Positions 1-21,494 of a stretch of DNA of 26,095 bases are shown piece after piece (positions within the stretch are counted from its first letter, which is position 1; each line of letters begins with the position of its first letter). The notes under the pieces are model-generated. The model was not told where the DNA came from, ran no database searches, and saw nothing but the letters and a program-made list of their open reading frames with translations. The stretch is from Prasinococcaceae sp. CCMP 1430 (taxonomy: Eukaryota; Prasinodermophyta; Palmophyllophyceae; Prasinococcales; Prasinococcaceae), in NCBI GenBank assembly GCA_013416795.1, contig RQSC01000031.1, positions 254,091-280,185 of the forward strand. Direction: 5' to 3'. Position numbers and translations under genes: made by a program.

Positions 1-722
1 CGAGCGGCGCGCGAATTTTCTTCCGTGGTTTGCATCGGCAACACTTAGACCCCATCGCATGCGCGCGCGCGCGCGCGCGCGCGCGCGCGCGGCCCCCATC
101 AAAACGCACGCGCGCGCGCGCGTGGCACGCAATGCATTTTGATTTACAGTCTGCGGGCGCGGCGTGACGGCTGACCTATATCAAATCGAATGGCCGCGAT
201 TCCGCGCGCGCGGGCGCCCGCGGGCGCCCCGTTCGGGGCTTCCGGGCTTCGGGTTTCGAGTTGCGGTTTGGTCATAACCCTAGCCGTCGCAGATTAGAAG
301 TGACGTACCGCACGCGAATTTACGCGCCATTGAGGTAAGACCCTATCCGTATATCAAAACGAACGAGTTTGTTTTTTTAATGAACAGAGTTGGTAGAAAT
401 ATTCGCGTGTGCGTCGCGACCTCGGTCGCGCGCCCGCGCGGTTTTTGGGGTTCGCTCGCCGGCTGCCGCGGCGCAGCCGCCGGCCAGCCGTCGCCAGCGC
501 AGCGCGCGCGCGTGCGCGCGTGCGTGCGTGCGCGTGTGTGCGTGAGCGTGTGCGTGTGCGTGTGCGTGTGTGTGTGCGCGCGTGCGTGTGTGTGTGTGCG
601 TGTGTGCGTGTGCGTGTGTGTGTAGGGGTGGGTGTGGGTGCGGGTGCTGCATGCCACGGCGCCCACACCTTGCGCGACGGGCGCGACGGGCGCGCGCGCG
701 CGTGCGCTCGCTCGCTCGCTCG
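1..722 (+). repeat. Direct repeat copy 1 (NOP56 5' flank)
   Basis: First copy of a 722 bp segment that recurs at 1690-2411 with a constant offset of 1689. It runs from the left edge of the window (so it may extend further left) to a CTCG microsatellite at 705-727, 27 bp before the NOP56 start codon. Outside two internal blocks the copies differ only at 172 and 217. In blocks 65-158 and 218-277 this copy is the same-direction complement of copy 2. Copy 1 carries ATCAAAACGCA (98-108) and its near inverted partner TGCATTTTGAT (133-143), a motif found in correct form elsewhere in the window, so copy 1 is likely the true sequence. Confidence 0.95.
502..623. repeat. CG/GT-rich microsatellite
   Basis: Imperfect run of GCGC, GTGC and GTGT units just upstream of NOP56. 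Its copy lies at 2191-2312. It makes long His/Thr/Arg or Cys/Val open frames in several phases that are not genes. Confidence 0.9.
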
Positions 723-749
723 CTCGCCCGCCCCGCCCCGGCGCTCGCG

Positions 750-1281
750 ATGGCGGACCTCTTCGTGCTGTACGAGTCCTCGAGCGGCTACGCGCTGCTC
801 AAGACCAAGCCGCTCGACGGGCTCGGCATGAGCCAGGCGGAGCTCGCGGGCGCCGTCGGCGAGGTGCGACGCGCCGCGCGCGGTGGCAGCGGCGCGCGCG
901 CGCTTGTGTGTGTGCGTGTGTAGGCTGTGCGCGGGCGCGTGCACACGCGGCGCATGTGCGTGAGCGGAGCACGCGTGCGTGTGCGTGCGCGTGCGCGCTT
1001 GTGCGCGCGCGTGCGTGTGTGCTTGTGCGCGCGCGCGCGCGCGTCTTCGCGTGGCGGGTGGTGCCTCTCCTTCGCGCGTGCTCGCTCGCCCGCGCGCGGA
1101 CGCTCGCTGACACCCCCGTCGTCGCCGCCGCCGCCGCCGCCGCGCAGCTCGAGACCTTCTCCAAGGTGGCCACGCTGGCGGCGTTCAAGCCCTTCGTCAG
1201 CGCCGCCGACGCGCTCGAGCAAATCAACGCGCTCTCGGAGGGTGCGAGCGCGCTCGCTCGCTCGCTCGCTCGCTCCCTCTC

Positions 1282-1331
<50 letters not shown>

Positions 1332-4092
1332 GCGCGCGCGGCACGCGTGTGCTCGCGCGCCTGCGCCTGCGACCGCGCGCGCGGCGGGCGCTGACGCCAC
1401 CCTCGTCTGGCCGGCCGCCCCCCGCGCCCCCCGGGGGTGCGACGGCGGCGGCCCTCCCGGCCCCCGTCCGCGCATTCAAATTCGTATACCGTCGCAGCTT
1501 GGGCTTGCGCGCATGAGCGCAGCGCCACGCGAAAGCACACCATCGGAAGTCGTTTTCATTAGGATTGATATATTTTCCACCCCCCCCCTCGCGCGCGCGC
1601 GCGCGCGCACTACTTCGCGGCACTTCCGCGGTTGTGAATGATGGTGTGTCCGGCTTTTCCGTATATGCAGACGGTTCCGGACCGATGCTCGAGCGGCGCG
1701 CGAATTTTCTTCCGTGGTTTGCATCGGCAACACTTAGACCCCATCGCATGCGCCGCGCGCGCGCGCGCGCGCGCGCGCGCCGGGGGTAGTTTTGCGTGCG
1801 CGCGCGCGCGCACCGTGCGTTACGTAAAACTAAATGTCAGACGCCCGGCGGCGTGACGGCCGACCTATATCAAATCGAATGGCCGCGATTCCGCGCGCGC
1901 GGGCGTGGCGCCCGCGGGGCAAGCCCCGAAGGCCCGAAGCCCAAAGCTCAACGCCAAACCAGTATTCCCTAGCCGTCGCAGATTAGAAGTGACGTACCGC
2001 ACGCGAATTTACGCGCCATTGAGGTAAGACCCTATCCGTATATCAAAACGAACGAGTTTGTTTTTTTAATGAACAGAGTTGGTAGAAATATTCGCGTGTG
2101 CGTCGCGACCTCGGTCGCGCGCCCGCGCGGTTTTTGGGGTTCGCTCGCCGGCTGCCGCGGCGCAGCCGCCGGCCAGCCGTCGCCAGCGCAGCGCGCGCGC
2201 GTGCGCGCGTGCGTGCGTGCGCGTGTGTGCGTGAGCGTGTGCGTGTGCGTGTGCGTGTGTGTGTGCGCGCGTGCGTGTGTGTGTGTGCGTGTGTGCGTGT
2301 GCGTGTGTGTGTAGGGGTGGGTGTGGGTGCGGGTGCTGCATGCCACGGCGCCCACACCTTGCGCGACGGGCGCGACGGGCGCGCGCGCGCGTGCGCTCGC
2401 TCGCTCGCTCGTCGTGGCTTTTTGTGCGCTTGGCTGACTCGAAAGGCTNCGGATGGCGACGGCCGACGCAACGCGCTCACTTCAATCTACTGGATGCCCA
2501 CGCGAGCGTCTCCCAGGCTGCCGCTCGGTGTCAACCTCAGCGACCACGTCCACTACTATCACTGCGGCGCGCCGTTTGAGTACACCCTGTACGACCCCGC
2601 GACTGGCGAGATGCACGTCGAGGTCCTCGGCCCCGATGTGCTTGCCGGTCACAGGCTGCAGGTGTGCGTGAAAGGAGGCACGTGGAAGTGCGGCAGGCTG
2701 CTGTGCGGCGACGCTCCGGTGGGCGCCGCAGGTGGCGGCGGCGACCCGCGAGATCACTGCCTGCTCGGCGAGGCCGTCGCGCCGGCCTTGGCGGCGCCCG
2801 CGCCCGCGCCCGCGCCCGCGCCCACCTCAGGCGACATGACGGAGTCCCTTCAGGACTTCTTGGAGATGTCCCTGCCCAAGGTGAAGAAGGCGGGCAACGC
2901 CAAGAAGTGCGGCTTCGCCGTGGGCGTGGCGGACAGCAAGCTGGGCTCGGCGGTGCAGGACGCGACGGGCATCCCGTGCACGACGGGCGAGGACGTGCGC
3001 GAGATCCTGCGCGGCTGCCGCATGCACCTGGCGCGCTTCACCGACGGCCTGAGCGACGCGGACGTGTCGCGCGCGCAGCTGGGCCTGGCGCACTCGTACT
3101 CGCGCGCCAAGGTGAAGTTCAACGTGAACCGCTCGGACAACATGATCATCCAGGCGATCGCGCTGCTGGACACGCTCGACAAGGACGTGAACACGTTCGT
3201 GATGCGCGTGCGCGAGTGGTACGGCTGGCACTTCCCCGAGCTGGTCAAGGTGGTGAACGACAACTACGCGTACGCGCGCACGGCCATGTTCATCAAGGAC
3301 AAGGCCAAGGTGTCGGACGACATGCTCCCCGAGCTCGCGGAGATCGTGGGCAGCGAGGAGATCGCCAAGGAGGTGCTCGAGGCGGCGCGCGCGTCGATGG
3401 GCCAGGACATCTCCCCCATCGACCGCGTGAACATCGAGGCGTTCGCCGAGCGCGTCATCTCGCTCGCCGAGTACCGGCAGAAGCTCGCCGACTACCTCGT
3501 GGACAAGATGCACGCCGTGGCGCCCAACCTGAGCGCGCTCATCGGCGAGACGGTGGGCGCGCGCCTCATCTCGCACGCGGGCAGCCTCACAAACCTCGCC
3601 AAGTACCCCGCGAGCACGGTGCAGATCCTGGGCGCCGAGAAGGCGCTCTTCCGCGCGCTCAAGACCAAGGGCAACACCCCCAAGTACGGCCTCATCTACC
3701 ACTCGAGCTTCATCGGCCGCGCGCAGGCGCGCAACAAGGGGCGCATCTCGCGCTACCTCGCCAACAAGTGCTCCATTGCCACGCGCATCGACTGCTTCAC
3801 CGAGGGCGCCGGCACCTCTGCTTTCGGCGAGCGCCTCAAGGAGCAGGTGGAGGAGCGCCTCGCCTTCTACGACAAGGGCACCGCGCCGCGCAAGAACGTC
3901 GACGTCATGCGCGAGGCCATCGAGGCCGCGGGGGGCACCGTCGCGCCCGGCGAGGAGGGCGGCAAGAAGCGCAAGGCCGCCGCGGGCTCGTCTGACTCCG
4001 ACGGCATGGACGTCGACGAGGCCACGCCCAAGAAGGCCAAGAAGGACAAGAAGGAGAAGAAGGAGAAGAAGGCCAAGAAGGACAAGAAGTAG
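750..4092 (+). CDS. NOP56: NOP56, box C/D snoRNP core protein (3 exons)
   Basis: Core protein of box C/D snoRNPs, which guide 2'-O-methylation of rRNA in the nucleolus. Model: exons 750-863, 1148-1241 and 2831-4092, giving 489 codons plus stop. Exon 1 starts [17 protein letters not shown], the typical NOP56 N-terminal fold; exon 2 reads [16 protein letters not shown]. Exon 3 holds the coiled-coil and Nop domain, with near-invariant stretches [62 protein letters not shown] and [16 protein letters not shown], then a Lys-rich tail of KKxKK repeats typical of NOP56/NOP58. Donors are GTGCGAC and GTGCGAG; acceptors GCGCAG and CCTCAG; phases 0 and 1 fit. The N-terminus is nearer NOP56 than NOP58. 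Odd point: intron 2 is 1,589 bp and contains a repeat of the gene's own 5' flank, an N and a cupin fragment, so it may be an assembly product. Confidence 0.93.
1251..1329. repeat. GCTC and CT microsatellite
   Basis: About six CGCT/GCTC units followed by a nearly pure CT run from 1286 to 1329, inside NOP56 intron 2. Confidence 0.95.
1690..2411 (+). repeat. Direct repeat copy 2, with two non-reversed complement blocks
   Basis: Second copy of 1-722. It is identical over 278-722 (here 1967-2411) and over the first 64 bases. Blocks 1754-1847 (94 nt) and 1907-1966 (60 nt) pair position by position with copy 1 as A-T and G-C in the same direction, with no exceptions. The stretch between the blocks (1848-1906) is again identical apart from two transitions. 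The repeat ends inside a CTCG microsatellite, after which copy 2 runs into unrelated sequence where copy 1 runs into NOP56 exon 1. Confidence 0.95.
2449..2449. other. Single-N ambiguity or contig join
   Basis: One N lies 38 nt after the end of repeat copy 2 and directly before a cupin domain that lacks its N-terminal half, as expected if unrelated contigs were joined here. Confidence 0.7.
2450..2797 (+). pseudogene. DUF985 (cupin_5) domain fragment, 5'-truncated
   Basis: The frame reads [10 protein letters not shown], then [49 protein letters not shown] and LGEAVAP. This order is that of the DUF985 / cupin_5 family (YML079w-like): the S-T-x-I-Y-Y strand, the S-D-x-x-H-x-Y/F-H-x-G-x-P-x-E core, the LGPD..G.R.Q..V..G.W turn and the final VAP. 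The usual N-terminal part (L-x-P-H-P-E-G-G-Y) is missing because the fragment begins at the N at 2449. It is in frame with NOP56 exon 3 through an Ala-Pro repeat, so a fusion is formally possible, but a consensus acceptor at 2828-2830 joins NOP56 exon 2 to exon 3 exactly. I regard it as the tail of a separate gene. Cupin_5 proteins bind small ligands; the function is poorly known. Confidence 0.65.
2794..2823. repeat. GCGCCC x5 hexamer repeat
   Basis: Five perfect GCGCCC units between the cupin fragment and the NOP56 exon 3 acceptor. It encodes alternating Ala-Pro if read through and could be a mis-join point or the pyrimidine-rich tract of the acceptor. Confidence 0.9.
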
Positions 4093-4632
4093 GGGGGGAG
4101 GGGGAAAACGCGGCCGCGCGCGCGGGAACACAGGCCCGCGGCGCCCGTCTGCACCACACACACACCACACAACTCCTCCGCGCTGGCTCCGGGGGGCCTG
4201 TACACTAACAACGCCACGCTCTTGACACGCCCGCGACGCGACGCAACGCGCGCGTGCGCGCGTGTGCTCGCGCCTGTGTGCGCGTGTGTGTGCGTGCGCG
4301 CGCGCGCGCGCGCGTGCTCGTCTTTGTGTCTGTGTGTGTGTGCGTGTGCGTGCGCACGCGCGTGTGTGTGTGCCTGCCGCGGCGCGGGCGTGGCCCCAAC
4401 AGCCACCGCTCGCTCGCAAGTTTCGGGTTGGCAGCGCCCGCTCGCACGTTGACACCTCTTTTCCCTTCAATGCAACGCCCTTAAGGGTCCAAAAAAAAGG
4501 GTCCATAAATGTCATCAAAATGCACGTGCCCGCGCGTGGCGTTATGAGGGGGGGAAAAACCGCGCGCTGGCGCACAGTGCGCGGGCGCGCGGGCCGGGTC
4601 ACTCGCCGTCTCGGCGGCGCCGAAGACGAAGC
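4093..4632. other. Intergenic spacer, low complexity
   Basis: Between the NOP56 stop and the N at 4633. It holds a CA-rich patch (about 4154-4170), a CG/GT microsatellite (about 4249-4372), an A8 run (4491-4498) and the motif ATCAAAATGCA at 4514-4524. The last ~60 bases before the N could encode an Arg-rich stretch in frame with the next gene. No gene was recognised. Confidence 0.6.
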
Positions 4633-4633
4633 N
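4633..4633. other. Single-N ambiguity or contig join
   Basis: One N at the very 5' end of the BEACH reading frame, which has no ATG for over 370 bases downstream. The true first exon is probably missing or on the other side of this join. Confidence 0.6.
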
Positions 4634-4635
4634 CA

Positions 4636-7600
4636 GCTGCTGCCGCAGCCGCGGCTGATTTCGCCTTCGGCTTGACGGCGGCAGGTGCCGCCCGAACGGC
4701 CGCGTTTAGAGGAGGCGCCCCGTTGCTTGCCCGAGCGCCGCTCGCAGGTGCGCTCTTGGCAAGAGTAGCGGCGGCGGTAGCCGCCGCAGCCGCAGCCGCG
4801 GCGGCGGTCGCCCGCGGAGTCTTTTGCTTTGCCGCTGCAGAGCGCTGCAAGTTGACGGCGGCAGCAGCGGCCGCGGGCGACGCGGACGGCAGGCCCGAGG
4901 ACGCCGACGCCGCGCTGCGCGATGCGGCGGCGCTTGTTCGTGCCATCGGCGCGGCTGCGCGGTCGCCGCACTGCAGGGAGAGGCTCGCGAGGCGGAACGT
5001 GCTGCTGCCGATTGGGGTGCTCACGCGCCGAGGGCTGCGTTCTGTGAAGGGCATGGGGCGTGCGCGCGGCTCGCGCGGTGACTACGGCGCCGACGTGGCG
5101 CTCGTACGCTCGTGTGCGCTCGCCGCCGAGCAGTTTGCGCTCGCCGCCGCGGGCATAGCCGGCGTCGGCGCAGATGGCGGAGCGATTCCCGCGTACGACG
5201 CCGAGCGTTGTGCGGACTGCATCGTCGAGGCGGGCGCGTGCGGGACGTTTGTGGAGGCGCTCCGGGCCGCGCGCGCGGCAGGGGCGCGCGCGGGCGCGCT
5301 GCTGCTGCAGCGAGATGCGCTCCGCGCCGTGGACGCGCTGCTTCGCTGCGCGCGGCTGCGATCGGCGACGGCGACCGCAGGCGCTGAGGCTGTGCTGCTC
5401 GAAGGACTCGGGTGGACCAACGCAGCTGCCGCCGCGCCCGCTGCGCTCGGCAGCGCTGGCGCCGCAGGCGAGATGGGCGACGCGATTGGAGCACTCAGCA
5501 CCGGTGCCACCTCCCTCGCTCCTCCGGCGCCCTCCGACGACCTGTACGCGCTGCTCGATGTGCAGCTCGCTACGGTGGGCGCGCTCTCCGCGCGGCCGGA
5601 CGCGCTCGTGGGTGCCGCAGGCGTCGCCAAATTGGCCGAGGCGCTGCAGTGGGTGGCGTGGTCCTTCGGCGAGAGGCTCGCGTGTGGCAAAAAACGAGCG
5701 GGCGCACAGAGTGAGCAAAACAGTGGCGGTGAGGTGATGGCGGCGCCAGCTTCGTCGCCAGCGTCGCAGAGCGAGTCTCCGCGCACGGCAGGTGGCAGTC
5801 GCACACACGCCGGTACGATGGCGTCATCGCGCTCGCCGCTCGCACGCATGCGCGAGGCCATCAGCGGCTTGATAGGGCAACACGGCGGCAGCAGCGGCGG
5901 CACTAGCGGCGCGAGCGGTCGCGTCGCGAGCGTCGCGGCCGCGCCTCGCGTCGTGAGTGCCGCAATCAAGGCCGTGTCGCTACCCCTGTGGCCATGCATG
6001 GGCCGCCCGGCGGCGTTTCAGGGGCTGTTGGAGGAGGGATCGGTGGCGTTGCAGCGCGAGGTGGTGATGCTGCTGCGAGAGGCGATGCGGGACACGGCCA
6101 CTGGGGGCGCCACACGCGCAGCACTGCGGGCTCTCGGTGCATGGGGCACCCTTCTCGGGCACACCTGCTACGCCTTCGGGGTGCCCGGCGGAGAGACGCA
6201 AACAGAAGTCGCAGACCCGCGCGCGGGCAGCGCAGGAGCGCACGCGGACGGCCCCGGCACACTCACCCTTCCTGATGTGGTGGCGCTGCGGCAGGACGTG
6301 ATGCATCTGCTAGTTCTGGCGTGTACGGATAGCGACGACGTCGAGCACGAGGTCGGCGCGTTGCTGGGTTCGGTGGTTGGGGGCGACAACGCGGTCGAGC
6401 TGCCGCTCGAGCTCCGCGCAGAGCTTTCGGCGACGCTGCGCGAAGTTGTTGACAGTGCTGCCGACAATACTGCGGTGACACTCATCGGGGAAGAGCGCAT
6501 GCTCCCCGCTTTTGCCGAAGCAATCGACAGCACCCGAGCGATGTCCGCCTCGATGTACGGCATGCCATCAAGGACGAGCCAGCGCCGGCAATGGGCCGGC
6601 AGCGGCACTGGCGACGACCCTGCTCGGATTGCAGAGAGCATCGTTGCTGATATCATCGACACAGTAGCTGAGGGAGGCAACCCCTCGCTGCAAGGACAGT
6701 CCGCAGGGAGCGATGCGGTTGCAGATGAGGACGAGGCTCGCACGGACGAGCTGCGTCTCCAATTGCAGCGCTCGGTGATTCTTGCGCTACGTGCGGTGCT
6801 CGCCGCCGCTGGGCGCTGTGGTTGCAATGGATTCGCCGCAGCCGCAGGCTCGCCTCAACTCTCGGCCGCGCTCACGCAGTGCGCAAGCGAGCCCTCGAGC
6901 GCAGCGTTCGTGCTGCCACTTCTTTGCGATCTGCTCACCGCACCCTCGCAGAGCGACGCCGAGCTCCCCGCACGCGAGGCGTTGCTGCGGCAGACGCTAG
7001 AGTTGCTGCCGCGAGCCCAGCACCATGCACGCGACAGTACAGGCGGATGCCGTCATTTGCTGGAGCTGCTCTACTTGGTGAGGTCAGCGCTGCTTGCAAA
7101 TCGGGCTCTATTGCAGCCGCTTGTGTGTGCTGTCGATGGCTATGTACCAGTTGTGTCCGTGCTGAACGAGGAGTACGGATCTTCGAGCATGGAGCGCGAT
7201 CACGCCGATGTTGGCTCGGACGAGATGCCCATTCTGCGTTCGGAGGGCCTGGCCTCAGCGGTGTCAACGGCGGTGTTGTCCACGCTGGTCGCGGCCCTCC
7301 GCGAGTCCGAGGACAGCAAAGCGGCGTTTGCGCGCCTTGTCGGCTACGACACGCTTGAGAGCGCGGTGCTTCGTTGTCACGGCGGTCGGCCCACCAGGAC
7401 GTTGCTGCGGGGCTTGCTCGCGCTCGCCTGCGACGACATTGGTGCCGGCGACTTCAACATCGCTCTGGCAGCTGGGCAGGGTGCGAGTGCGCCTCTTGGC
7501 GCGGCCTCTGGCACGACTGCCGCATCGGGGGGAACGAGCGGCGGCCGCACATCAGCGCCGATGGTCGTCGCCAATGACGCGGCGCTGTGCGTACTGCTAC

Positions 7601-10600
7601 GCGTGGCCCGACGCGCGCCCGACGGTCTGCAAGGCGAGGCACTCGCTGCTGTGAGCGCGCTATTGCAGGACTCCACGACAAATCGACTTGCGGCAGAGCG
7701 AGCGGAGCTCGGCACGCTCCTGCTCGAGTGGCTACCGGAGGCGCGAGAGGACAGCATGGACGCTGGACCATCCATCCGGTCGAGAGTGTCTACGCTCCTG
7801 TGCGCAGCCGCGTCGGGTTCGTTTTCTGCTCGCGACGCTCGACGGGCAGTGGCGATGTTGCGCCCCGCCGACGATCCGCCCCCGCATGCCCTCGTGCTTA
7901 TTGAGTCACTCACGGCCATGGCGGAGCGCTCGAAGGTGCCGTCTGCATATTTTGATATGAACGGCAAGCGCTCTGGCTTGCAGCTGTCTAGTGGCATGCG
8001 CTGGCCGTCAAGCAAGGGCTACGCCTTCGCAACTTGGCTTCGACTGAATGAGCCAGCTGCGGGGGCTGCTGTGATGGATATGTTGCGCACCCCTGGCAAG
8101 ACTACTGCTGCATATATTCCCATGTCGCCGTCAGACGCGGATGTTGGACTGGATGAGCGTGGATTCTTTTCTTTCGCCGCCGGTGAGGGCAGCGGAGTTG
8201 TCGCCACTCTCATCCGTGGCGGGGACATCATGGTGCGCACGAGTGGGCGCAAGGACGACGGTGCCATATTCTCTACTGGCATCGGTCCAGGCAACTGGCA
8301 CCACGTGGTCGTCACACACGCGGCGAGCAGGGGACCGCTCGCATCCCCGGCGGTATGCAAAGTGTACGTTGACGGCACGCTGGTCGCTTCAACTCAGCTC
8401 AGATTTCCGAAAACACCCCCGGGGGATGGCGGGCTGAGCGCTGGTGGGATTGCGTGCGGTGGCGCTGGCGGCGTCGTTTGGAAGCACGCCGAGGCGGCAA
8501 AGGCGCAATCGCGGGCGAGCGCGCCGCAGGGCGATTCCGGCGTGCCACCTCCGTGGATGGGTGCGACGCCTCTGGGCGGACAGCTCGGGAGCGTGTACCT
8601 CTTTCACGATGCGCTCAGCGACCTGCAGGTGAAGGCGTTGCACTTGATGGGCTCCTCTTATCGACATACGTTTTTACCAACGGAGTGCGGCGTGGCTCCC
8701 GTGAGCCTTGAGAGTGTCAAGGCTGCGCTTGAGGGCAAGGACTCCTTGGCAAATCGGCTGGCCGCGTGTTTCGTCGCCACCGCTGCGGACGCGAGCGGTT
8801 CCGCATGCGTGAACACTGCCGTGGACGCGACGTCGTGCGAGGCTGGGTCGGCCCACGGCGCGCGCGTCATGCCAGGGACCCAACTACGTTCCACGCGTGG
8901 CCTGCGAGACGCAATGCATGCAATTGGTGGGGCATCGGTGTTCACTCCCTTGCTCACGTGCACGCCAAAAGCTCTGGCCTCACGCGATAGCAGAGCCATG
9001 GCCACGTCGGTGCACTCGGCGACTGTGCGGTTGATTGCATCCATGCTCGACGGTGCTGCAGGCTCGCGCTCTGCCTTCAACGCTTCTGATGGCACGGGCG
9101 TCATATCGCATCTTTTGTCACGACTCCCGCATGAGCTTCTTACTGCAGACCTGCTCCGTGCAACACAAGCTCTGGAGAGGTGCTGTATGGGTGCGACCCA
9201 GTTGCGTGTCGACGTCGTACGCAGGCTGGTGCTGAATTACGAGCTCTGGTGGCAAGCGCCTGACGAGACGAGGCTGCCACAGCTCGAGCTCTCAACAAGC
9301 ACGACTGCCGACATGTTCGCCGCTGCTGGCGGTTGCGGCGCCCTGATTGACGCAGCGGCCGGTGGCAGCGGGCGGCGCAGCACGAGTGCTCGCGATGCCG
9401 GCGTCATCGCAGCTCAGGACGGTGGAGGCGTGCGAAATTTGGAAGACACCGACGCGCAGTGGCATCGTGATGCCCAGGCTCGCAAGGCTGTCGTGTCGGC
9501 GCTCACGACCGTGCTCGCAGGTGATCTTGCGCCTCCGAAAGGTCTCAATGAAAAAGACGCGGCGCAGGCGAGAATGCCCTCGCGTGAGGACGTCTGCGCA
9601 TGTCTGGCGATTGCCCTCGACTCCGGTGGGGCGAGCAGGCCTGCTCCGCCGTCCGACCTCGCCTCGGGTGCGCTTTGCGCTATCGCGGCGGCCTTACTCA
9701 GGCCGAATCGTGGCCTTCGCGAAGTGGTGCTGGGGTGCGTGGGTGGGTACGGAGGCGCAGCGCTTGCCGGTGCTATGATGCGACCGCGCTCGGTCGCACA
9801 CGAGCCATCACTCCCAGACGAAACGGCGGCCGCCGATGGTCGAGGCGACGTGGGTCCGGTCGCGCTGGCTGGCCTGGCATTTCTTGTTGCAATCGTACAA
9901 GCTGTTTCAGATGAGATCGACATCGCCAGCACGGCTGGCACTTCAGTGCCTTCGTGGGTGCACCAAGCCATCAAGGGCCCCACGCAGAGACTGTCAGCCG
10001 GCGTCAATGTTGGCGCGCGCGAGTTTATATCAGAGGCGACAGCTGTGCTTATGTCGAATGGCCCCTTGCACGCGAGTGCGCTCATGGCGGTCACGTCAGC
10101 GCTGGCGCCGATACAGAAACAGACAGCAGCAGTTGAGGCCGTGCTTTCCCTGGCCTCGAAGTGCACAGACGTTGGCGCACGTGCGGCTGCAATCGACGCA
10201 GTTGCGAGCTGGCAGCTCGGAGAGACTCTGGCGCGCAGCAAGAGCTGGCAGGAGCTGCTACTGCCCACTGTCATCTGCGCGGCTAGTGCTGACAGTGCGG
10301 ATCGCTGCTCGGCTCTCAATCTCTTCGCTGCAGCGCACGCGCAGGCGATCGCGCACGTGCGAGGTGGCTGGCGCGTCGTGGAGCGCAGCGTCAGCTGTAT
10401 CCATGCGGCCGCCGCACGAGGCGAGTGCGATGGTTACTCGCTCTGCCATGAGATGTTGGCGCCGGTCCTGCGCGCTGCTGCGCGCACTCTCACACGTGCG
10501 TTGCACGATGTAGGCTCAGCCGACGAGAGCAGCCGTGCGTCTCTTGATTCTCTGCAAGTGGAGGACGCTTTGCACAACGCCGTCTGTGTTGTTGCTCTTG

Positions 10601-13600
10601 CTGATGAGCTAACGATGGGGGATGTCCAGATTGTGCTGGACTGTCTGACGACGTCTGGCGAGTCGCCTGTGGCCGCAACGACAGTGGGGGCTGGCGCGGT
10701 GTCCTCTGCTGCCGCTGCCGCCGCAGCGACGGCGGTGTCCATTGAGGTGCCTTCGCAGATCAGCGAGGACGGAGGACCCGCGCCAAGGCCATTGTCTCCG
10801 AGCGGTAGCATCGTCGCTGATGACGCTGAGTCGGAGGCAGCTGCTTCTGACAGCGGCTTCGAGATTGTGGACGGCGAGGAGGCCGCAGCCACTGCAGCGG
10901 CAGCGCACGCGCCGCGGCCTGCGGGGCAGTCGCGCCTGGTGTCGCTGCAGAGTCAAGTGGGGTCCGATGAGAGCAGCACGCACCGGTATGGACGCCTGAA
11001 GATACCGGTGGGTGCGAAGAAAGGTACTGCGCCAGAGCACGGCTGGGAGGTCTGCCGTCTTGCATGCGACGTGCTGTCGCTGTGGCACAGGTTGCACGCT
11101 GCTCTCCGCACGCGCTCGGCGTCCCAAAGTGCCTCATCTGGCGGCAGCGCGGCCCACGTCACAGTCCCCATCGATCTACGCACCAAGGCAAAGGACTTTG
11201 TGGGTGGGCTCTTTTCGTCAGCGACTGCTGCGGGCGCCGCAGCTCTCGACGCAGCCTCGCGCGGACGCAATGCCACAGACGCTTCAAAGAGCTCTGGGCT
11301 CCCTCCCGACGACTCGCCGCATGCGGATGCGGTTGTCCTCACGGGCGGCGCGGGTGCGCCTCTGAACGCAACTGGCGAGGGTCTGGCGGGTGCAGTGCTG
11401 CGCATCGTTGTCCTCTGTGCTGTCGCCGGCCCTGTCGAAGGCGCGGCCGCCGCCGCGGTGCAGGCACTTTCCGAGGGCGCCGCCGCTCCTGTGCGCCCGC
11501 CGCGTGGTGCCGACGCCAAGGCCGTCCGCAGGAGAGCAGATAGGGTGCAGCTCACGGTTTCTGTGCTCGAGGAGGCGCAGCGTCGCGTACCAAGTGGGTC
11601 TGCGCGGCACCAGATGCTCGGGCTGGCTGTGGAACTGCTGAAAGATAACACGCGCAATCTCGTTCGTGATGCGATTCTGCTCGAACGCGGTGGGATGAAC
11701 GTCCGGAGCAGTGGTGCGAACGATGCTGGCGGCGACGCCAGCACCGAAGAACTCGACGCTCTTGAGGCTGAGCTCAAGCCGGCGTGGGCGCGGCGTGGGC
11801 TTGCATCAGAAGCGCGCACACTCCTGCAGCTCGCGAAGGTCAGGCGTGACGCTGCAGGCGAGGCGATGTCCGAGTGGGCGAGCGTCGGCCAACGCTCTCA
11901 GCGTGCATACGAGGCAATCGCCGGTGCTCGCTCGGAGGCGATTGCGGCCGTCTTGGCGGGCGATGCCGAGCGGCGTGCCGCCGCCGCTGCTGCGCGTGAC
12001 GAGGCTGTGAGCGACGGGGCGATCCGCTGGCGCGAGCTGCAGCGTGAGTTCTACCAGGAACGGGGCCCTTGGGCTGCGATCGCTGCGGCGTCCAGCCTGG
12101 ATCCAACCGCGTCGCCCTCCCGCAAAGCCAACCACGAAAGCGACGCCGACGAGGGGCGCTCCCACAGCTTTGAATGGAGAATGGACAAGGTGGAGGACTC
12201 CTCGCGCCGACGGCTGCGCCTCAAGCTCACCACTGCCCTCTCGGCGGCCGGCGGCCGTAAAGTGGCGTCGAGTGGATCGAGCAGCCCTTCGCCGGGCAGT
12301 CTGGACGCGCGCAACCCAGGGAGCGCAGCTGGCACGCCTTCGAAGCCCTCGGGTGAGGACCTCGTCTCGACGGGAAAGGAATTCGCCGCAAACTGCTCGC
12401 TTGTGACAGTGAAGCGCGTGATCCACGGACGGCTGCGCGTGGATGCTCGGTCCGGTGACCTGGTGTTCAGGCCCCATGCGGATGCAGCAGATGTGGCTCG
12501 CGCGCCGTGGAACAGGACGAGGCGTTGGGCGCTCCGTCGGCTCGCGGAGGTGCGCATGATGCGCTATCAGCTGCGACCGTGCGCGTTCGAGATCTCCCTC
12601 GACGACAGGCGCACGGCCTTCTTCGCTTTCGACACGCGCATCACCTGCCGCGCCGCAGCCGAACGCGTCGCCAAGGCCAGGCCAGGCGGGAGTATCACTG
12701 TCACGGATAGGCGTCGCGCGCGCGAGGAGGCCGAGCGTGCGTGCGCGCGCTGGCGTTCGCAGCAGATATCGACGTTCGACTACCTGATGGCACTGAACAC
12801 GCTTGCCGGGCGCACCTTCAACGACGCGCAGCAATATCCTGTGTTCCCATGGGTCATTGCCGATTACACCTCCGACGAGCTCGATCTCAAGGCTCCCTCG
12901 ACCTTCCGAGACCTCTCCAAGCCGGTCGGCGCGATCAACCCAGACCGTCGGGACTTCGTGTTGGAGCGCTACAACTCGTTCGAAGACCCCGAGGGCATCG
13001 TGCCCAAGTTCCACTACGGCTCGCACTACTCGAGTGCCGGCGCCGTGCTGTACTACATGATTCGCCTTCAGCCGTTCCACTGGCTGCACCGCGAGCTGCA
13101 GGGGGGCAAGCTCGACCACGCAGATAGGCTCTTCCACTCAGTTGGCGCAACGTGGGACAACGTGCTTACCAACTCGTCTGACGTGAAGGAGGTCATCCCC
13201 GAGTGGTACTACCAGCCAGAGATGTTCCGCAACCTTGGAGGGTACGACCTGGGCACACGCCAGGATGGCGCCGTGCTGGGCGACGTGCTGCTGCCGCCAT
13301 GGGCCCACGGCTCGCCAGAGGAGCTGGTGCGCCTCAACCGCGAGGCGCTCGAGTCCGACTACGTGAGTGCCCGTATTCATGAGTGGGTCGACCTCATCTT
13401 TGGATTCAAGCAGACCGGCAAGGCAGCCGAGGAGGCGTGCAATGTGTTCTACTACCTGACGTACGAGGGGGCGGTGGACGTCGACGCAATCGAGGACGAG
13501 CGCGAGAGGGAGTCGATACTCGCTCAGGTTCGCGAGTTTGGCCAGACTCCCGCGCAGCTTTTCAAGCGAGCTCACGCCGCGCGCAGCACCGAGCGAACGC

Positions 13601-14859
13601 TCAGGCGGCCGCTGCGTGACGCCCCGCAGATGCTGGAGCCTGCCGGCGCCGCCCTTCCCGCGAAAAACTCCCGCGTGGCCTGGGCTCTCTCAACCATCGT
13701 CCTGTCGCCCGATGGGCGCGTGCTGTCCGTCGACACTAACGCGAGGTACGCCATGCACCGGTGGATCACGCCGCAGACGCTCTCATCGGGGGCGTTCTCA
13801 TTCGCGGCGGGCGGGCAGGCAGCGGCGTACTCAGCTGGTGGCGCGCGCTGCGCCCTCGAGCCCGACCCGCAGCCGCCGCGCACTCTGCGTGGTGGCGGCG
13901 TGGCGTGGTCGAGCGCCAACGGTAGCGCGGGCGTCTCCGAAGCGCGCGCTGTGCAGAGCGCACCTGCGATGCACTTCGCCGCGCCGCCCAGCCTGCGCTT
14001 CGTACTGAGCGCGGGCCATTGGGACAACGCCATTTGTGCGGTGTCCGCCGAGAATGGCCGGCTGCTCCAGAGAGTCGTCGCGCACAAGGACGCCGTCACG
14101 AGCCTCGCTATGAGCTCGGATGGGTCGGTCGCTGTGAGCGGCTCTGCTGACACGACCGTCATGCTGTGGGACACGCTGCACGCCGCGCGCGACGCCGACA
14201 AGGACGCGCTGCCGCTCGCCTCAACCCCGCGAGCGGTCCTCCGCGGTCACAAGGACGCCGTCGTGGCGCTCGCCGTGGACGCGGACCTCGACTTGGTGGC
14301 CTCGGGCGGCGCGGACGGCTGCTGCATCCTGCACGCGCTGCATTCGGGGCAGTACCTGCGCGCGTTGCACCCCGACACGGGCTTGAGCGCGGGCCCCGCT
14401 GCGCTGGTGGCCATCGCGGGAGGAGTGGTGCCGTGCGTTGTGGTGTACACCGCCAACGACCTGAGCGTGCGGAGCTACACGATCAACGGCCGCGCGCTCG
14501 CGCGCGGCGACGCGCGCGAGCGCCTGCACGCGCTGGCGGTGGCGCCCGAAGGGGACGTGTGCGTGGTCGGTGGCGACCGCGGCGTGGTGTGCGTGCGCCG
14601 CACGCACGACCTGGTGACCACGCGCACGCTCAAGCCTCCGCAAGCGAGCGCGGGCGTGATCACCGCGCTGCACGTCTCCAGGGAGGAGGCCGTGCTGGCG
14701 GGCACTGCCGGCGGGGCGCTGTGCGCGCTGGCGCTCGGTGTTCGCGCGAGCAAGCAAGCACGCGGCGGCGGAGAGGACGGCACCGCACCCTCGGCCGCAC
14801 ACCGCGCCGTTGCGGCGACCGGACTGCCTGGCCAGGACCTCCTCAGGGACCTCCTCTGA
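4636..14859 (+). CDS. BEACH/WD40 scaffold protein, neurobeachin/LRBA-like (5' partial)
   Basis: Very large cytosolic scaffold of the BEACH family, which acts in vesicle traffic and membrane dynamics. The frame is open from the N at 4633 to TGA at 14857, about 3,400 codons with no intron. Regions: Ala-rich start; alpha-helical solenoid (about 4900-7900); concanavalin-like domain (about 7942-8665) with GYAFATWLRL and GNWHHVVVTH; second solenoid with low-complexity linkers (about 8700-12150); PH-BEACH (about 12376-12640; CSLVTVKRVIHGRLRV); BEACH (about 12750-13590) with NPDRRDFVLERY, FHYGSHYSSAGAVLYYMIRL, PFHWLH, IPEWYYQPEMF, WVDLIFGFKQTG and NVFYYLTYEGAVD; then WD40 repeats to the end (for example HKDAVTSLAMSSDG, SGSADTTVMLWD). 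The order ConA-solenoid-PH-BEACH-WD40 is that of neurobeachin, LRBA and plant SPIRRIG. It belongs to that broad class; the exact orthologue is not resolved. The first in-frame ATG is at about 5053, so the start is unknown. Confidence 0.92.
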   Translation, partial: AAAAAAADFAFGLTAAGAARTAAFRGGAPLLARAPLAGALLARVAAAVAAAAAAAAAVARGVFCFAAAERCKLTAAAAAAGDADGRPEDADAALRDAAALVRAIGAAARSPHCRERLARRNVLLPIGVLTRRGLRSVKGMGRARGSRGDYGADVALVRSCALAAEQFALAAAGIAGVGADGGAIPAYDAERCADCIVEAGACGTFVEALRAARAAGARAGALLLQRDALRAVDALLRCARLRSATATAGAEAVLLEGLGWTNAAAAAPAALGSAGAAGEMGDAIGALSTGATSLAPPAPSDDLYALLDVQLATVGALSARPDALVGAAGVAKLAEALQWVAWSFGERLACGKKRAGAQSEQNSGGEVMAAPASSPASQSESPRTAGGSRTHAGTMASSRSPLARMREAISGLIGQHGGSSGGTSGASGRVASVAAAPRVVSAAIKAVSLPLWPCMGRPAAFQGLLEEGSVALQREVVMLLREAMRDTATGGATRAALRALGAWGTLLGHTCYAFGVPGGETQTEVADPRAGSAGAHADGPGTLTLPDVVALRQDVMHLLVLACTDSDDVEHEVGALLGSVVGGDNAVELPLELRAELSATLREVVDSAADNTAVTLIGEERMLPAFAEAIDSTRAMSASMYGMPSRTSQRRQWAGSGTGDDPARIAESIVADIIDTVAEGGNPSLQGQSAGSDAVADEDEARTDELRLQLQRSVILALRAVLAAAGRCGCNGFAAAAGSPQLSAALTQCASEPSSAAFVLPLLCDLLTAPSQSDAELPAREALLRQTLELLPRAQHHARDSTGGCRHLLELLYLVRSALLANRALLQPLVCAVDGYVPVVSVLNEEYGSSSMERDHADVGSDEMPILRSEGLASAVSTAVLSTLVAALRESEDSKAAFARLVGYDTLESAVLRCHGGRPTRTLLRGLLALACDDIGAGDFNIALAAGQGASAPLGAASGTTAASGGTSGGRTSAPMVVANDAALCVLLRVARRAPDGLQGEALAAVSALLQDSTTNRLAAERAELGTLLLEWLPEAREDSMDAGPSIRSRVSTLLCAAASGSFSARDARRAVAMLRPADDPPPHALVLIESLTAMAERSKVPSAYFDMNGKRSGLQLSSGMRWPSSKGYAFATWLRLNEPAAGAAVMDMLRTPGKTTAAYIPMSPSDADVGLDERGFFSFAAGEGSGVVATLIRGGDIMVRTSGRKDDGAIFSTGIGPGNWHHVVVTHAASRGPLASPAVCKVYVDGTLVASTQLRFPKTPPGDGGLSAGGIACGGAGGVVWKHAEAAKAQSRASAPQGDSGVPPPWMGATPLGGQLGSVYLFHDALSDLQVKALHLMGSSYRHTFLPTECGVAPVSLESVKAALEGKDSLANRLAACFVATAADASGSACVNTAVDATSCEAGSAHGARVMPGTQLRSTRGLRDAMHAIGGASVFTPLLTCTPKALASRDSRAMATSVHSATVRLIASMLDGAAGSRSAFNASDGTGVISHLLSRLPHELLTADLLRATQALERCCMGATQLRVDVVRRLVLNYELWWQAPDETRLPQLELSTSTTADMFAAAGGCGALIDAAAGGSGRRSTSARDAGVIAAQDGGGVRNLEDTDAQWHRDAQARKAVVSALTTVLAGDLAPPKGLNEKDAAQARMPSREDVCACLAIALDSGGASRPAPPSDLASGALCAIAAALLRPNRGLREVVLGCVGGYGGAALAGAMMRPRSVAHEPSLPDETAAADGRGDVGPVALAGLAFLVAIVQAVSDEIDIASTAGTSVPSWVHQAIKGPTQRLSAGVNVGAREFISEATAVLMSNGPLHASALMAVTSALAPIQKQTAAVEAVLSLASKCTDVGARAAAIDAVASWQLGETLARSKSWQELLLPTVICAASADSADRCSALNLFAAAHAQAIAHVRGGWRVVERSVSCIHAAAARGECDGYSLCHEMLAPVLRAAARTLTRALHDVGSADESSRASLDSLQVEDALHNAVCVVALADELTMGDVQIVLDCLTTSGESPVAATTVGAGAVSSAAAAAAATAVSIEVPSQISEDGGPAPRPLSPSGSIVADDAESEAAASDSGFEIVDGEEAAATAAAAHAPRPAGQSRLVSLQSQVGSDESSTHRYGRLKIPVGAKKGTAPEHGWEVCRLACDVLSLWHRLHAALRTRSASQSASSGGSAAHVTVPIDLRTKAKDFVGGLFSSATAAGAAALDAASRGRNATDASKSSGLPPDDSPHADAVVLTGGAGAPLNATGEGLAGAVLRIVVLCAVAGPVEGAAAAAVQALSEGAAAPVRPPRGADAKAVRRRADRVQLTVSVLEEAQRRVPSGSARHQMLGLAVELLKDNTRNLVRDAILLERGGMNVRSSGANDAGGDASTEELDALEAELKPAWARRGLASEARTLLQLAKVRRDAAGEAMSEWASVGQRSQRAYEAIAGARSEAIAAVLAGDAERRAAAAAARDEAVSDGAIRWRELQREFYQERGPWAAIAAASSLDPTASPSRKANHESDADEGRSHSFEWRMDKVEDSSRRRLRLKLTTALSAAGGRKVASSGSSSPSPGSLDARNPGSAAGTPSKPSGEDLVSTGKEFAANCSLVTVKRVIHGRLRVDARSGDLVFRPHADAADVARAPWNRTRRWALRRLAEVRMMRYQLRPCAFEISLDDRRTAFFAFDTRITCRAAAERVAKARPGGSITVTDRRRAREEAERACARWRSQQISTFDYLMALNTLAGRTFNDAQQYPVFPWVIADYTSDELDLKAPSTFRDLSKPVGAINPDRRDFVLERYNSFEDPEGIVPKFHYGSHYSSAGAVLYYMIRLQPFHWLHRELQGGKLDHADRLFHSVGATWDNVLTNSSDVKEVIPEWYYQPEMFRNLGGYDLGTRQDGAVLGDVLLPPWAHGSPEELVRLNREALESDYVSARIHEWVDLIFGFKQTGKAAEEACNVFYYLTYEGAVDVDAIEDERERESILAQVREFGQTPAQLFKRAHAARSTERTLRRPLRDAPQMLEPAGAALPAKNSRVAWALSTIVLSPDGRVLSVDTNARYAMHRWITPQTLSSGAFSFAAGGQAAAYSAGGARCALEPDPQPPRTLRGGGVAWSSANGSAGVSEARAVQSAPAMHFAAPPSLRFVLSAGHWDNAICAVSAENGRLLQRVVAHKDAVTSLAMSSDGSVAVSGSADTTVMLWDTLHAARDADKDALPLASTPRAVLRGHKDAVVALAVDADLDLVASGGADGCCILHALHSGQYLRALHPDTGLSAGPAALVAIAGGVVPCVVVYTANDLSVRSYTINGRALARGDARERLHALAVAPEGDVCVVGGDRGVVCVRRTHDLVTTRTLKPPQASAGVITALHVSREEAVLAGTAGGALCALALGVRASKQARGGGEDGTAPSAAHRAVAATGLPGQDLLRDLL

Positions 14860-18996: not shown

Positions 18997-18997
18997 N
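18997..18997. other. Single-N ambiguity or contig join
   Basis: N directly after the C46 tract and three bases before the ATG of a small ORF. Confidence 0.6.
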
Positions 18998-18999
18998 GG

Positions 19000-19224
19000 A
19001 TGACACACATGAACTACGACAAGCCGCCGCCGGAGATGAAGCTGGAGCAGCCCTCCTTTGGAGAGGAGTACGCGCCGCTGACTGTGCACGGCTGGGGGGG
19101 GGAGAAGCGCTACGGCGACGACAAGATGCTCGCCAAGAGCTACTGGCCCAAGGGGAGCGCGATGTACGCCAAGGACGGCAAAGTGCGCAGGTGGCAGAAG
19201 GTCGAGGCCTGGAAGCCCAACTGA
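19000..19224 (+). CDS. Small protein of 74 residues, unknown (possibly 5' partial)
   Basis: Begins MTHMNYDKPPPEMKLEQPSF and ends RRWQKVEAWKPN. It is charged and aromatic-rich, with no membrane segment; GYW-type residues (VHGWGGEKRYG, KSYWPKGSAMY) suggest a compact or complex-bound small protein. Third positions are strongly G/C. Not recognised; similar small basic/acidic proteins occur as accessory subunits of mitochondrial complexes, but I have no motif to claim that. The ATG is three bases after the N at 18997, and the frame is open into the C46 tract, so upstream coding sequence may be missing. Confidence 0.55.
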   Translation: MTHMNYDKPPPEMKLEQPSFGEEYAPLTVHGWGGEKRYGDDKMLAKSYWPKGSAMYAKDGKVRRWQKVEAWKPN

Positions 19225-19494
19225 GCGTCGCCCTCGCGGAGGGCTGGTCGCCAGGCTGCGGCAGCGCCGGGAGGCGCGCTGAAGCGAGCGCGCGAGGGGC
19301 ACTCTTGCTGCGCGTATCGCCTCTTTTTTTTTTGGTATCGCGAACACATTTTTGACTCGGCAGCAATGGCGTCTGCGCGTGTGCGTCCGCACGAGCGCAA
19401 GCGCGCACTCGCTCGCTGTGCGTGCCATGAGGCATCCCGAAGCGCGCGCATTGTCTACACACAAAGAAGTATTACAAAGGATGGACGCGACGAC
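19225..19494. other. Convergent intergenic spacer
   Basis: 270 bp between the small ORF and the NMD3 stop. It has a T10 run at about 19322-19331 and a minus-strand TGTAA near the NMD3 end. No gene was seen. Confidence 0.6.
19472..19476 (-). terminator. Putative TGTAA polyadenylation signal (NMD3)
   Basis: Minus-strand TGTAA 19 nt after the NMD3 stop codon. Confidence 0.4.
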
Positions 19495-21282
19495 TCACAT
19501 GTCCATGTCACCAGGGCCTGCGCCACTAGGCGCAGGCCCACCCCCGCCTCCGCTTGCGTCGCTCACATTGAGCGCTGTGAGCGAGTCAAGCAGCTCCTCG
19601 AGCGGCACCTCGGGGACGCCATCGCCATCACTCTCATCGTCGTAGTCGTCGTCGTCGACTGCGCCGCCCGCACCGCTCGCGCCACCTGCGTGGCCCTCCG
19701 AGCGGCGGTACAGATTGATGCGGGAGCGCAACTCGGGGTCCTCCTCGAGCTCCTCCATGAAGCGCTCCATGTCGCGCTGCCGCTGCTCCTCCATCGCCGC
19801 CTCGGCAGCACCCTGCCGCCTGCTCGATTTCGACTTGTTCTTGGCGCCCTCAGCACCGTCACCATGTGCGTCCTCGTCGGTATCCATCTGCCCCTTGTTG
19901 CCCAGCTGCTTGAGCTGCCACGGCCTCGCCCTGTTCTTCCTCCGCCGCCTCTTCTCGGCGTAGCTCTTGCGCACGAGAACCACGTCAGGCAGGTCGATCG
20001 AGCCGCCGTACGAGTCGACCTCGGCGGTGTTGTAGTTCGCTGACTGCAGGTCATAACCAAGCGCCGTGTCGCCCGGCTTGAGCACTGAGCCCAGCAACGT
20101 GCGCACGTGCATGGTGCCGTCGGTGTGCCCGAACTCGCTCACCTACGCAACGCGTGGCGAAATGCAATTCTGTCAGCGTCGACACCGCGCGGTGGGGCAC
20201 GCAGGCGCGAGCCCGCGCGAGTGTGCTCGCGCGTGTGCGCTCGCGCGCGCGCGTTGCCCCCGCGCGCGCACCTTCACCACCTCCGCATCGGCGAGCACGT
20301 ACGGGCCGTTAGCGATGGGTCTGCCGTAGTCTCCGCGCACGCACTCGATGTCAAGCACGAGGTACTCAACGAGCTGCTTGGAATCCTGAATGACCGCGAT
20401 GGGCGAGCGCCAGTATTGAGTAGCGTCGAGCCACACCTGGCGCAGCGAGCTCGGGTCAGTGAAGAGCAGGTTGTTGGAAACGCGCGTGACGAGCGCGAGC
20501 GGCCCGAAGCCGCCCAGCGCGCGGCTCTGCCGTCGGTCGAAGACAACCAGGTCGTCCTTGCACGGGTGCGCAATTTCGCAGTAGAACGTGAACTTGTAGC
20601 GGTAGTTCGAGGTGTGCTCGTCGTGCGACACGAGCTCCTTGGAGTCCTTGCCCTGCTTGACGGGCGCGACTTGCGTGAGGAAGTCGACGAAGGAGAGCGC
20701 GTGCGACTTGGACTTGAAGAAGAAGTCTAGTCCATCGGCGTTGTCCTTGACGTTGATGGTGTGCTTGTCGGCGCCGTGCTTGAGGATGAGCTGCTCCAAG
20801 AACAGGAAGGTGCGCTTGTGGCTCACTTTCTGGCGCACCTGCACGCTCGCAACCCACTGGTCAGGGTTTGCGTTGGCACGGATGCACTCGCCGCACATGT
20901 TGTACACCACCGTGTAGTCCACCACGCAGCTCTGCTGCAGGATAGCTCCGTTGAGCACCTCGTCCTGCACGGTGACCTTCACCTTGAGCTGCTTGCTGTG
21001 CGGCTCAGTCCAGATGAAGCCCGCATCGACGAGCTTGACCTTGTTGAGGCCCTTCAGGCGCTTCACGCAAAACGTGAGCAGCTCCTTGGACTCGAGCTCT
21101 GCGCGCAGCCAATGCTTGGGCGGCTGCAGGTACTTGCCGCACGTCGAGCAGTAGATGACCGTGCAGCGACGTGGTATGTCCTTTGTGATATCCACCTGGG
21201 TGCGGACGCAGTTCACGCACATGTTGGTCGGGTTAGGCGGCATGCCTACGCCACAGATGCAGCACAGGATGGTGCCCGTAGT
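19495..21282 (-). CDS. NMD3: NMD3, 60S ribosomal export adaptor (first exon uncertain)
   Basis: Adaptor that loads the 60S subunit onto CRM1/exportin for nuclear export. Supported exons: 21282-20272 and 20142-19495, 552 residues, with a 129 bp intron (GTGCGCG donor, GCGTAG acceptor, phase 0). The N-terminal zinc-binding cysteines are clear: ILCCICGVGMPPNPTNMCVNC, then VIYCSTCGKY, then YNMCGEC. Highly conserved blocks follow: LVDAGFIWTEPHSKQLKVKV, NGAILQQSCVVDYTV, KRTFLFLEQLILKHGA and ADGLDFFFKSKSHA. Exon 2 has SVLKPGDTALGYDL and DVVLVRKSY, a basic nuclear-localisation-like run KRRRRKNRAR, acidic stretches, and PLEELLDSLTALNV, which resembles the C-terminal CRM1 export signal of human NMD3. 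No in-frame ATG lies before TTGTILCC; CCTCGCAG at 21290-21283 is a good acceptor. A candidate first exon starts at ATG 21482 (MAPALLRSKL) and would use a GTGCGAG donor with an intron of only about 50 bp; this is tentative. Confidence 0.92.
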
Positions 21283-21494
21283 CTGCGAGGCTTGGAATGT
21301 GCCCAGCGGCCCATGGCTGATCCCGCTCGCACTGGCACGCCCTGTCTCCCCCTCCCGCCCCTCCCCTCGGACGCGCGCGGGCAAAACGCGGCGGGCAGGG
21401 GCGGCCGGCGCGGGCGCGGGCGCGCTGCTGCAGTCCAGCGGAGCTCGGGCATCAATTTGCTGCGTAGGAGTGCTGGTGCCATCGCCGGTGGGCG
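21283..21494. promoter_or_regulatory. Divergent promoter region, NMD3 / membrane protein gene
   Basis: Only 212 bp separate the first supported NMD3 exon (minus) from the ATG of the plus-strand gene at 21495. The tentative NMD3 first exon lies inside it, so the two transcripts would start from one shared region. No core promoter motif was identified. Confidence 0.4.

Follow-up and report, generated by a model that had tools for sequence, protein, structure and literature searches.

The NOP56 locus and its duplicated upstream region

The window, i.e. the whole 26,095-nt stretch of DNA analyzed, corresponds to positions 254091-280185 of contig C79 in a genome assembly of 24.5 Mb in 145 contigs; over the part compared (window 1-9910) its letters were those of the contig. 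It is preceded by 21,069 N and followed by 16,510 N, and the long N runs on C79 are located at 1-6756 (the contig start), 233022-254090 and 280186-296695.

The NOP56 gene lies near the left end of the window on the plus strand. Exon 1 (750-863) and exon 2 (1148-1241) were placed by inspection, with inferred splice sites. The frame of exon 2 runs on into exon 3 (2831-4092), the start of which was also placed by inspection and which matches the Pfam Nop domain PF01798. Among the best 120 of 6,072 matches listed for exon 3, the closest protein (86%) has no name and the top named matches are from green algae, at about 66-75%. Since exon 2 is in frame with exon 3, the stretch 1242-2830 reads as intron 2 of the gene, and this apparent intron holds the entire anomalous mosaic described below.

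The upstream region of NOP56 is present twice. Copy 1 (1-722) begins at the first base after the 21,069-N run, and copy 2 (1690-2411), in the same plus-strand orientation, lies wholly inside the apparent intron 2. The duplicate had been recognized in the earlier note, which missed its location in this intron and beside a chimeric single-N join.

The two copies were compared position by position at an offset of 1689. In two blocks they are complementary at every position while running in the same direction: block A, 65-158 in copy 1 versus 1754-1847 in copy 2 (94 of 94 nt), and block B, 218-277 versus 1907-1966 (60 of 60 nt). The systematic exchange is thus exact at 154 of 154 block positions when copy 1 is taken as a template. 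Outside the blocks the copies differ at two bases only, 172 (T in copy 1, C in copy 2) and 217 (C and T, respectively), both within the 59 unflipped nucleotides that separate the blocks and are otherwise the same. There are no insertions or deletions between the copies in the 722 nt, so the register is kept at all four block edges, and the edges between flipped and regular sequence are sharp in the sequence record. This bears out the description in the earlier note of a parallel complement with identical flanks save for 172 and 217; the strings given there as examples were correct, and its interval 1754-1966 takes in both blocks together with the 59 nt between them.

An in-place complement keeps the direction of the sequence and exchanges the strands. 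Elsewhere in the window the longest parallel-complement match was 15 nt (14-nt words, low-complexity words left out). For 171,532 non-N bases of C79, 16-mer matching was then carried out under each of the 24 possible permutations of the letters, read forward as well as reversed, again with low-complexity words left out. Long matches were obtained only under identity, reverse complement and this particular parallel complement; for every other permutation the best match in these bases was 20 nt.

If the region upstream of NOP56 had simply been duplicated in recent times, with local inversion or gene conversion, this would account for a direct duplicate of 722 nt in which two single bases differ. 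The explanation fails at the blocks: inversion would give a reverse complement, none of which was seen, and conversion cannot alter strand polarity. Inversion or conversion as the source of the blocks is thereby refuted, as had been argued before on the ground that neither process can give a parallel complement. We regard this explanation as a whole as having next to no chance of being right.

Dispersed relatives and the original state of the blocks

With copy 1 as a query, a small dispersed family was detected in the genome (9 of 9 candidates scored). One relative, at C105:33055-33306, matches copy 1 at 92% over positions 127-379 and a second, at C2:473205-473451, at 85% over positions 130-377; shorter relatives of copy 1 are present on C84, C64, C79, C101 and C46. 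The dispersed element is about 250 nt long (window 127-379), comprises two longer and five shorter loci and carries ATCAAAACG-type motifs. The genome contains the sequence ATATCAAAACGAA 12 times, and its backward reading not once.

When copy 2 was used as a query (1800-2300), the C105 and C2 loci were matched at 77% and 73%, respectively (40 of 117 candidates scored). In the columns of block B the C105 relative agreed with copy 1 at 60 of 60 positions and with copy 2 at none, and the C2 relative at 54 and 2 of 60. For block A, the upstream half of which is poorly alignable with both relatives, 67 of the 83 aligned columns of the C105 locus agreed with copy 1 and 5 with copy 2, the corresponding figures for the C2 locus being 61 and 8 of 93. 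In the middle 59 nt, 55 columns of the C105 locus agreed with copy 1 and 57 with copy 2, and 50 and 52 of the C2 locus. The two-column gain of copy 2 in this part is due to positions 172 and 217, at which both relatives carry the base of copy 2.

A query restricted to 1754-1966 (4 of 4 candidates scored) matched the C105 and C2 loci only over its positions 95-153, i.e. over the 59 unflipped nucleotides, at 97% and 88%. The query further matched its own source in copy 2, copy 1 (74% over query positions 1-165) and, in two places, GC runs.

As judged from these alignments, it is in copy 2 that the blocks are altered, and the copy 1 state is that of the family. The earlier note had preferred copy 1 because of motifs that it shares with other parts of the window; the preference was right, and it is the two relatives elsewhere in the genome, rather than the motifs, that bear it out. 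The same relatives reveal a point missed at that time. They carry the copy 2 base at 172 and 217, which makes copy 2 an independent reading of the locus, perhaps its other allele, and not simply a damaged duplicate of the copy 1 record.

A 19-nt sequence ahead of copy 2 (1553-1571, plus strand) recurs on C105, where it likewise precedes the element. This suggests that 1440-1689 naturally adjoins copy 2 on the left. In that case 1440-2411 would belong together as the genuine sequence to the left of NOP56, and would have come into the intron by misplacement.

Foreign fragments at single-N joins

The right end of copy 2 leads into sequence from other parts of the genome. Positions 2403-2448 are identical over 46 nt to C2:336318-336363 (minus strand), and the 9 nt at the breakpoint (2403-2411) are common to copy 1 and the C2 fragment. 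A single N follows at 2449, 38 nt beyond copy 2. On its other side, 2450-2789 matches C15:196970-197309 at 100%, with identity unbroken to 2785. On C15 the counterpart lies inside a reading frame that is free of interruptions and encodes an almost complete Cupin_5 domain, and C15 therefore looks like the native place of this fragment.

A second chimeric join occupies 4579-4876, where 54 nt to the left of the N at 4633 match C75 (98%) and 243 nt to the right match C90 (100%); in this search 40 of 286 candidates were scored. A stop-free frame of 3,468 codons (4453-14859, plus strand) spans this N and its foreign filler. The single N at 18997 is followed by some 2.33 kb (18998-21326) that match the minus strand of C84, at 99% over 18998-19150 and 100% over 19400-21326 where compared. 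To the left of 18997 there is a 63-nt match at 92%, which is largely poly-C.

We examined the nine single Ns present in the stretches of C79 that were analyzed for an N-touching piece of at least 46 nt with at least 98% identity to another locus. Such a piece was found at seven of the nine, and five of these are unambiguous: 2449 and 4633 (both sides), 18997 (right side, C84), C79:68217 (left side, 110 nt of C37 at 99%) and C79:119485 (right side, 150 nt of C62 at 100%). Two are ambiguous. At C79:104088 the 50 nt on the right match at 98%, with a second place on C14 matching 63-64 nt at 94%, and C79:59165 belongs to a multi-copy family. In the latter case (C79:58954-59400) the single N is flanked by inverted arms, each about 210 nt long, that differ from one another at 5 positions, and the stretch has matches on 11 other contigs, for the most part at 94-100%. 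No foreign piece was found at the other two of the nine joins, C79:29574 and C79:303979.

As a control, 9000-12900 (3,901 nt) gave an outside match of 31 nt only. A further stretch, 19400-23300, starts in the C84-matching piece; in its remainder (21327-23300) the matches were limited to one of 41 nt (90%) and one of 43 nt (93%). Taken on these matches, the insertion of foreign fragments at single-N joins is a recurring assembly fault in this genome. The locus also serves as a warning that promoters or introns annotated for NOP56 in this assembly cannot be relied on. The anomaly in copy 2 resembles assembly errors of this kind in that such fragments are present here, and differs from them in that they do not produce a parallel complement on their own, so that an error of strand handling is also needed.

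Origin of the exchanged blocks

The two blocks are very probably the product of an error in the sequence record, namely a reversal without complementing, whatever its trigger, and the feature is real in the record but almost surely absent from the cell. This reading is favoured because known recombination and copying processes preserve 5′-3′ polarity, so that a reverse complement is possible and parallel joining is not. The exactness of the in-place complement, the state of the relatives, the 19 nt shared with the C105 locus and the chimeric single-N setting also count for it. The exchange is in place, preserves length and follows the complement rule only, as a software error of this type requires. 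If it were biology, the antiparallel rule of copying would be overturned. A software origin had been proposed in the earlier note; reversal without complementing is by far the best account of the data, and what finds poor support is the further idea, plausible in kind, that a repeat mask defined the blocks.

According to this account, a contig or fragment from upstream of NOP56 (roughly 1440-2411, and perhaps from the other allele) would have been put into a gap in NOP56 intron 2 and would not have been joined to the sequence that it overlaps at window position 1. A routine turning the misplaced contig to the opposite strand would have reversed every character and complemented only part of them. 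Compared with the true sequence, the two skipped stretches would then appear as in-place complements with sharp edges and without insertions or deletions. The likeliest marker of the skipped letters would be lower case used for low-confidence consensus, which, given an error of this kind, we consider reasonably probable. A less likely variant of the same account, to which we give some weight, does without lower case: a minus-strand correction or gap patch may have been written reversed and uncomplemented. The sequence outcome would be the same, the locus is the neighbourhood of a gap with wrong filler, and the block edges fit no low-complexity interval. On the other hand, patches should change the length at times, and both blocks hold exact register.

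The exact edges and the kept register argue against jumps between overlapping reads, and a jump within the GC run is disfavoured because it would leave no CC break at 1753-1754. Soft-masking of simple repeats was rejected as the cause, since neither DUST-type nor TRF intervals fit the block edges; the proposal that the edges might match masked intervals thus failed for every low-complexity interval computed. In copy 1 the DUST-type criterion marks 53-114, 480-636, 676-722 and the single position 671. Of these, 53-114 takes in the first half of block A together with 12 unflipped bases ahead of it, the strongest low-complexity tract (480-636) is unflipped, and block B is not low-complexity. A hairpin or another structure that is hard to read was rejected as well: block A folds at -35.9 kcal/mol, but its unflipped neighbours reach -33.5 and -32.8 kcal/mol, and block B is ordinary at -9.3 kcal/mol. 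That the edges match neither low-complexity intervals nor special folding was counted against the explanation by incomplete complementing, as was the lack of a foreign piece at two of the nine single-N joins.

A decoding error in colour-space data (SOLiD-type two-base encoding) could also create such blocks. In dibase encoding a sequence and its parallel complement share identical colours, so that one wrong colour flips everything downstream and a second one restores it, and two colour errors would bound a flipped block of the kind seen here. In colour space only 7 of 721 steps separate the two copies, and the block edges are single colour changes, one of them merged with the base difference at 217. 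However, such errors should produce three types of exchange, and one type was found. All four edges are of the complement type, for which the chance is (1/3)^4 if the three types are equally likely, and the other two colour states gave no above-chance stretch in 171.5 kb. There is, moreover, no sign that data of this type were used. We therefore consider a colour-space error improbable, if somewhat less so than either explanation that invokes real DNA.

According to the remaining explanation the sequence is genuine nuclear DNA: two stretches of a promoter region that had been duplicated would have arisen by copying with a systematic A<->T and C<->G exchange, with exact switches into and out of this mode. 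The form fits published exchanges of this rule with sharp switches, as given in an excerpt of the literature on swinger DNA (PMC4942731). In that excerpt the 16S sequence of Kamimuria wangi, attributed to Seligmann, is such a case, with an in-place complement, sharp switches to regular flanks and the same rule as here; A<->T and C<->G is there the only exchange found in DNA, for reasons stated to be unknown, and the DNA cases it describes are database sequences (PMC4942731). The present locus differs in not being mitochondrial, in adjoining a demonstrably chimeric join, and in that the regular state is seen in another copy and in relatives of the family, and a mundane cause is favoured here. 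The family bases of copy 2 at both differences outside the blocks do speak for real copying in so far as they exclude a paste of copy 1. To our knowledge, swinger replication has no accepted mechanism. It would also call for trustworthy, join-free surroundings, and here a single-N join lies 38 nt beyond copy 2; because of this untrustworthy context we did not file the locus as swinger DNA. A true exchange in the cell is very unlikely, in our estimate.

The excerpted part of a paper on human EST swinger sequences argues that random artefacts cannot yield systematic exchanges and that systematic errors should hit all sequences (PMC7027195). As an artefact, the NOP56 locus is a clean case, in which the true state can be read from related loci, the wrong state is exactly bounded, and the error is systematic yet local. 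Reversal without complementing yields exactly the A<->T and C<->G rule, and does so locally; from this we infer a possible link to the published swinger records. A local, exact and rule-bound exchange can enter a record for ordinary reasons, as at this locus. A search of the literature by phrase for this exact artefact found no paper.

A scan for further pairs of non-reversed complements, proposed for the whole assembly, was made for 171.5 kb of the 24.5 Mb and found no second pair of flipped blocks in them, which we counted against the explanation by incomplete complementing. A 1,400-nt set composed of flank parts of six single-N sites and window 1440-1689 was complemented and compared with the genome in a search run without a positive control, and gave no match.

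Composition was also considered. Block A of copy 2 is odd in this respect, which we counted for an error in the record: 4 of 8,502 windows of comparison were as low or lower, one of them being block A itself. In a k-mer model applied to segments of the 171.5 kb, the segment 1592-1833, which includes most of block A, took rank 9 at order 3, rank 2 at order 4 and rank 6 at order 5. Comparable flip-like segments exist elsewhere, and a segment of copy 1 (203-645) ranked 6th at order 3. For block B, copy 1 scored slightly negative and copy 2 slightly positive, so that its flip is neither supported nor detectable in this way. Checks of stop codons in 18 other candidate segments gave mixed results, some frames losing stops upon flipping and others gaining them. 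The stretch 1592-1689, which adjoins copy 2 and has no second copy for comparison, also leans to the flipped state by composition and is possibly a third uncomplemented block.
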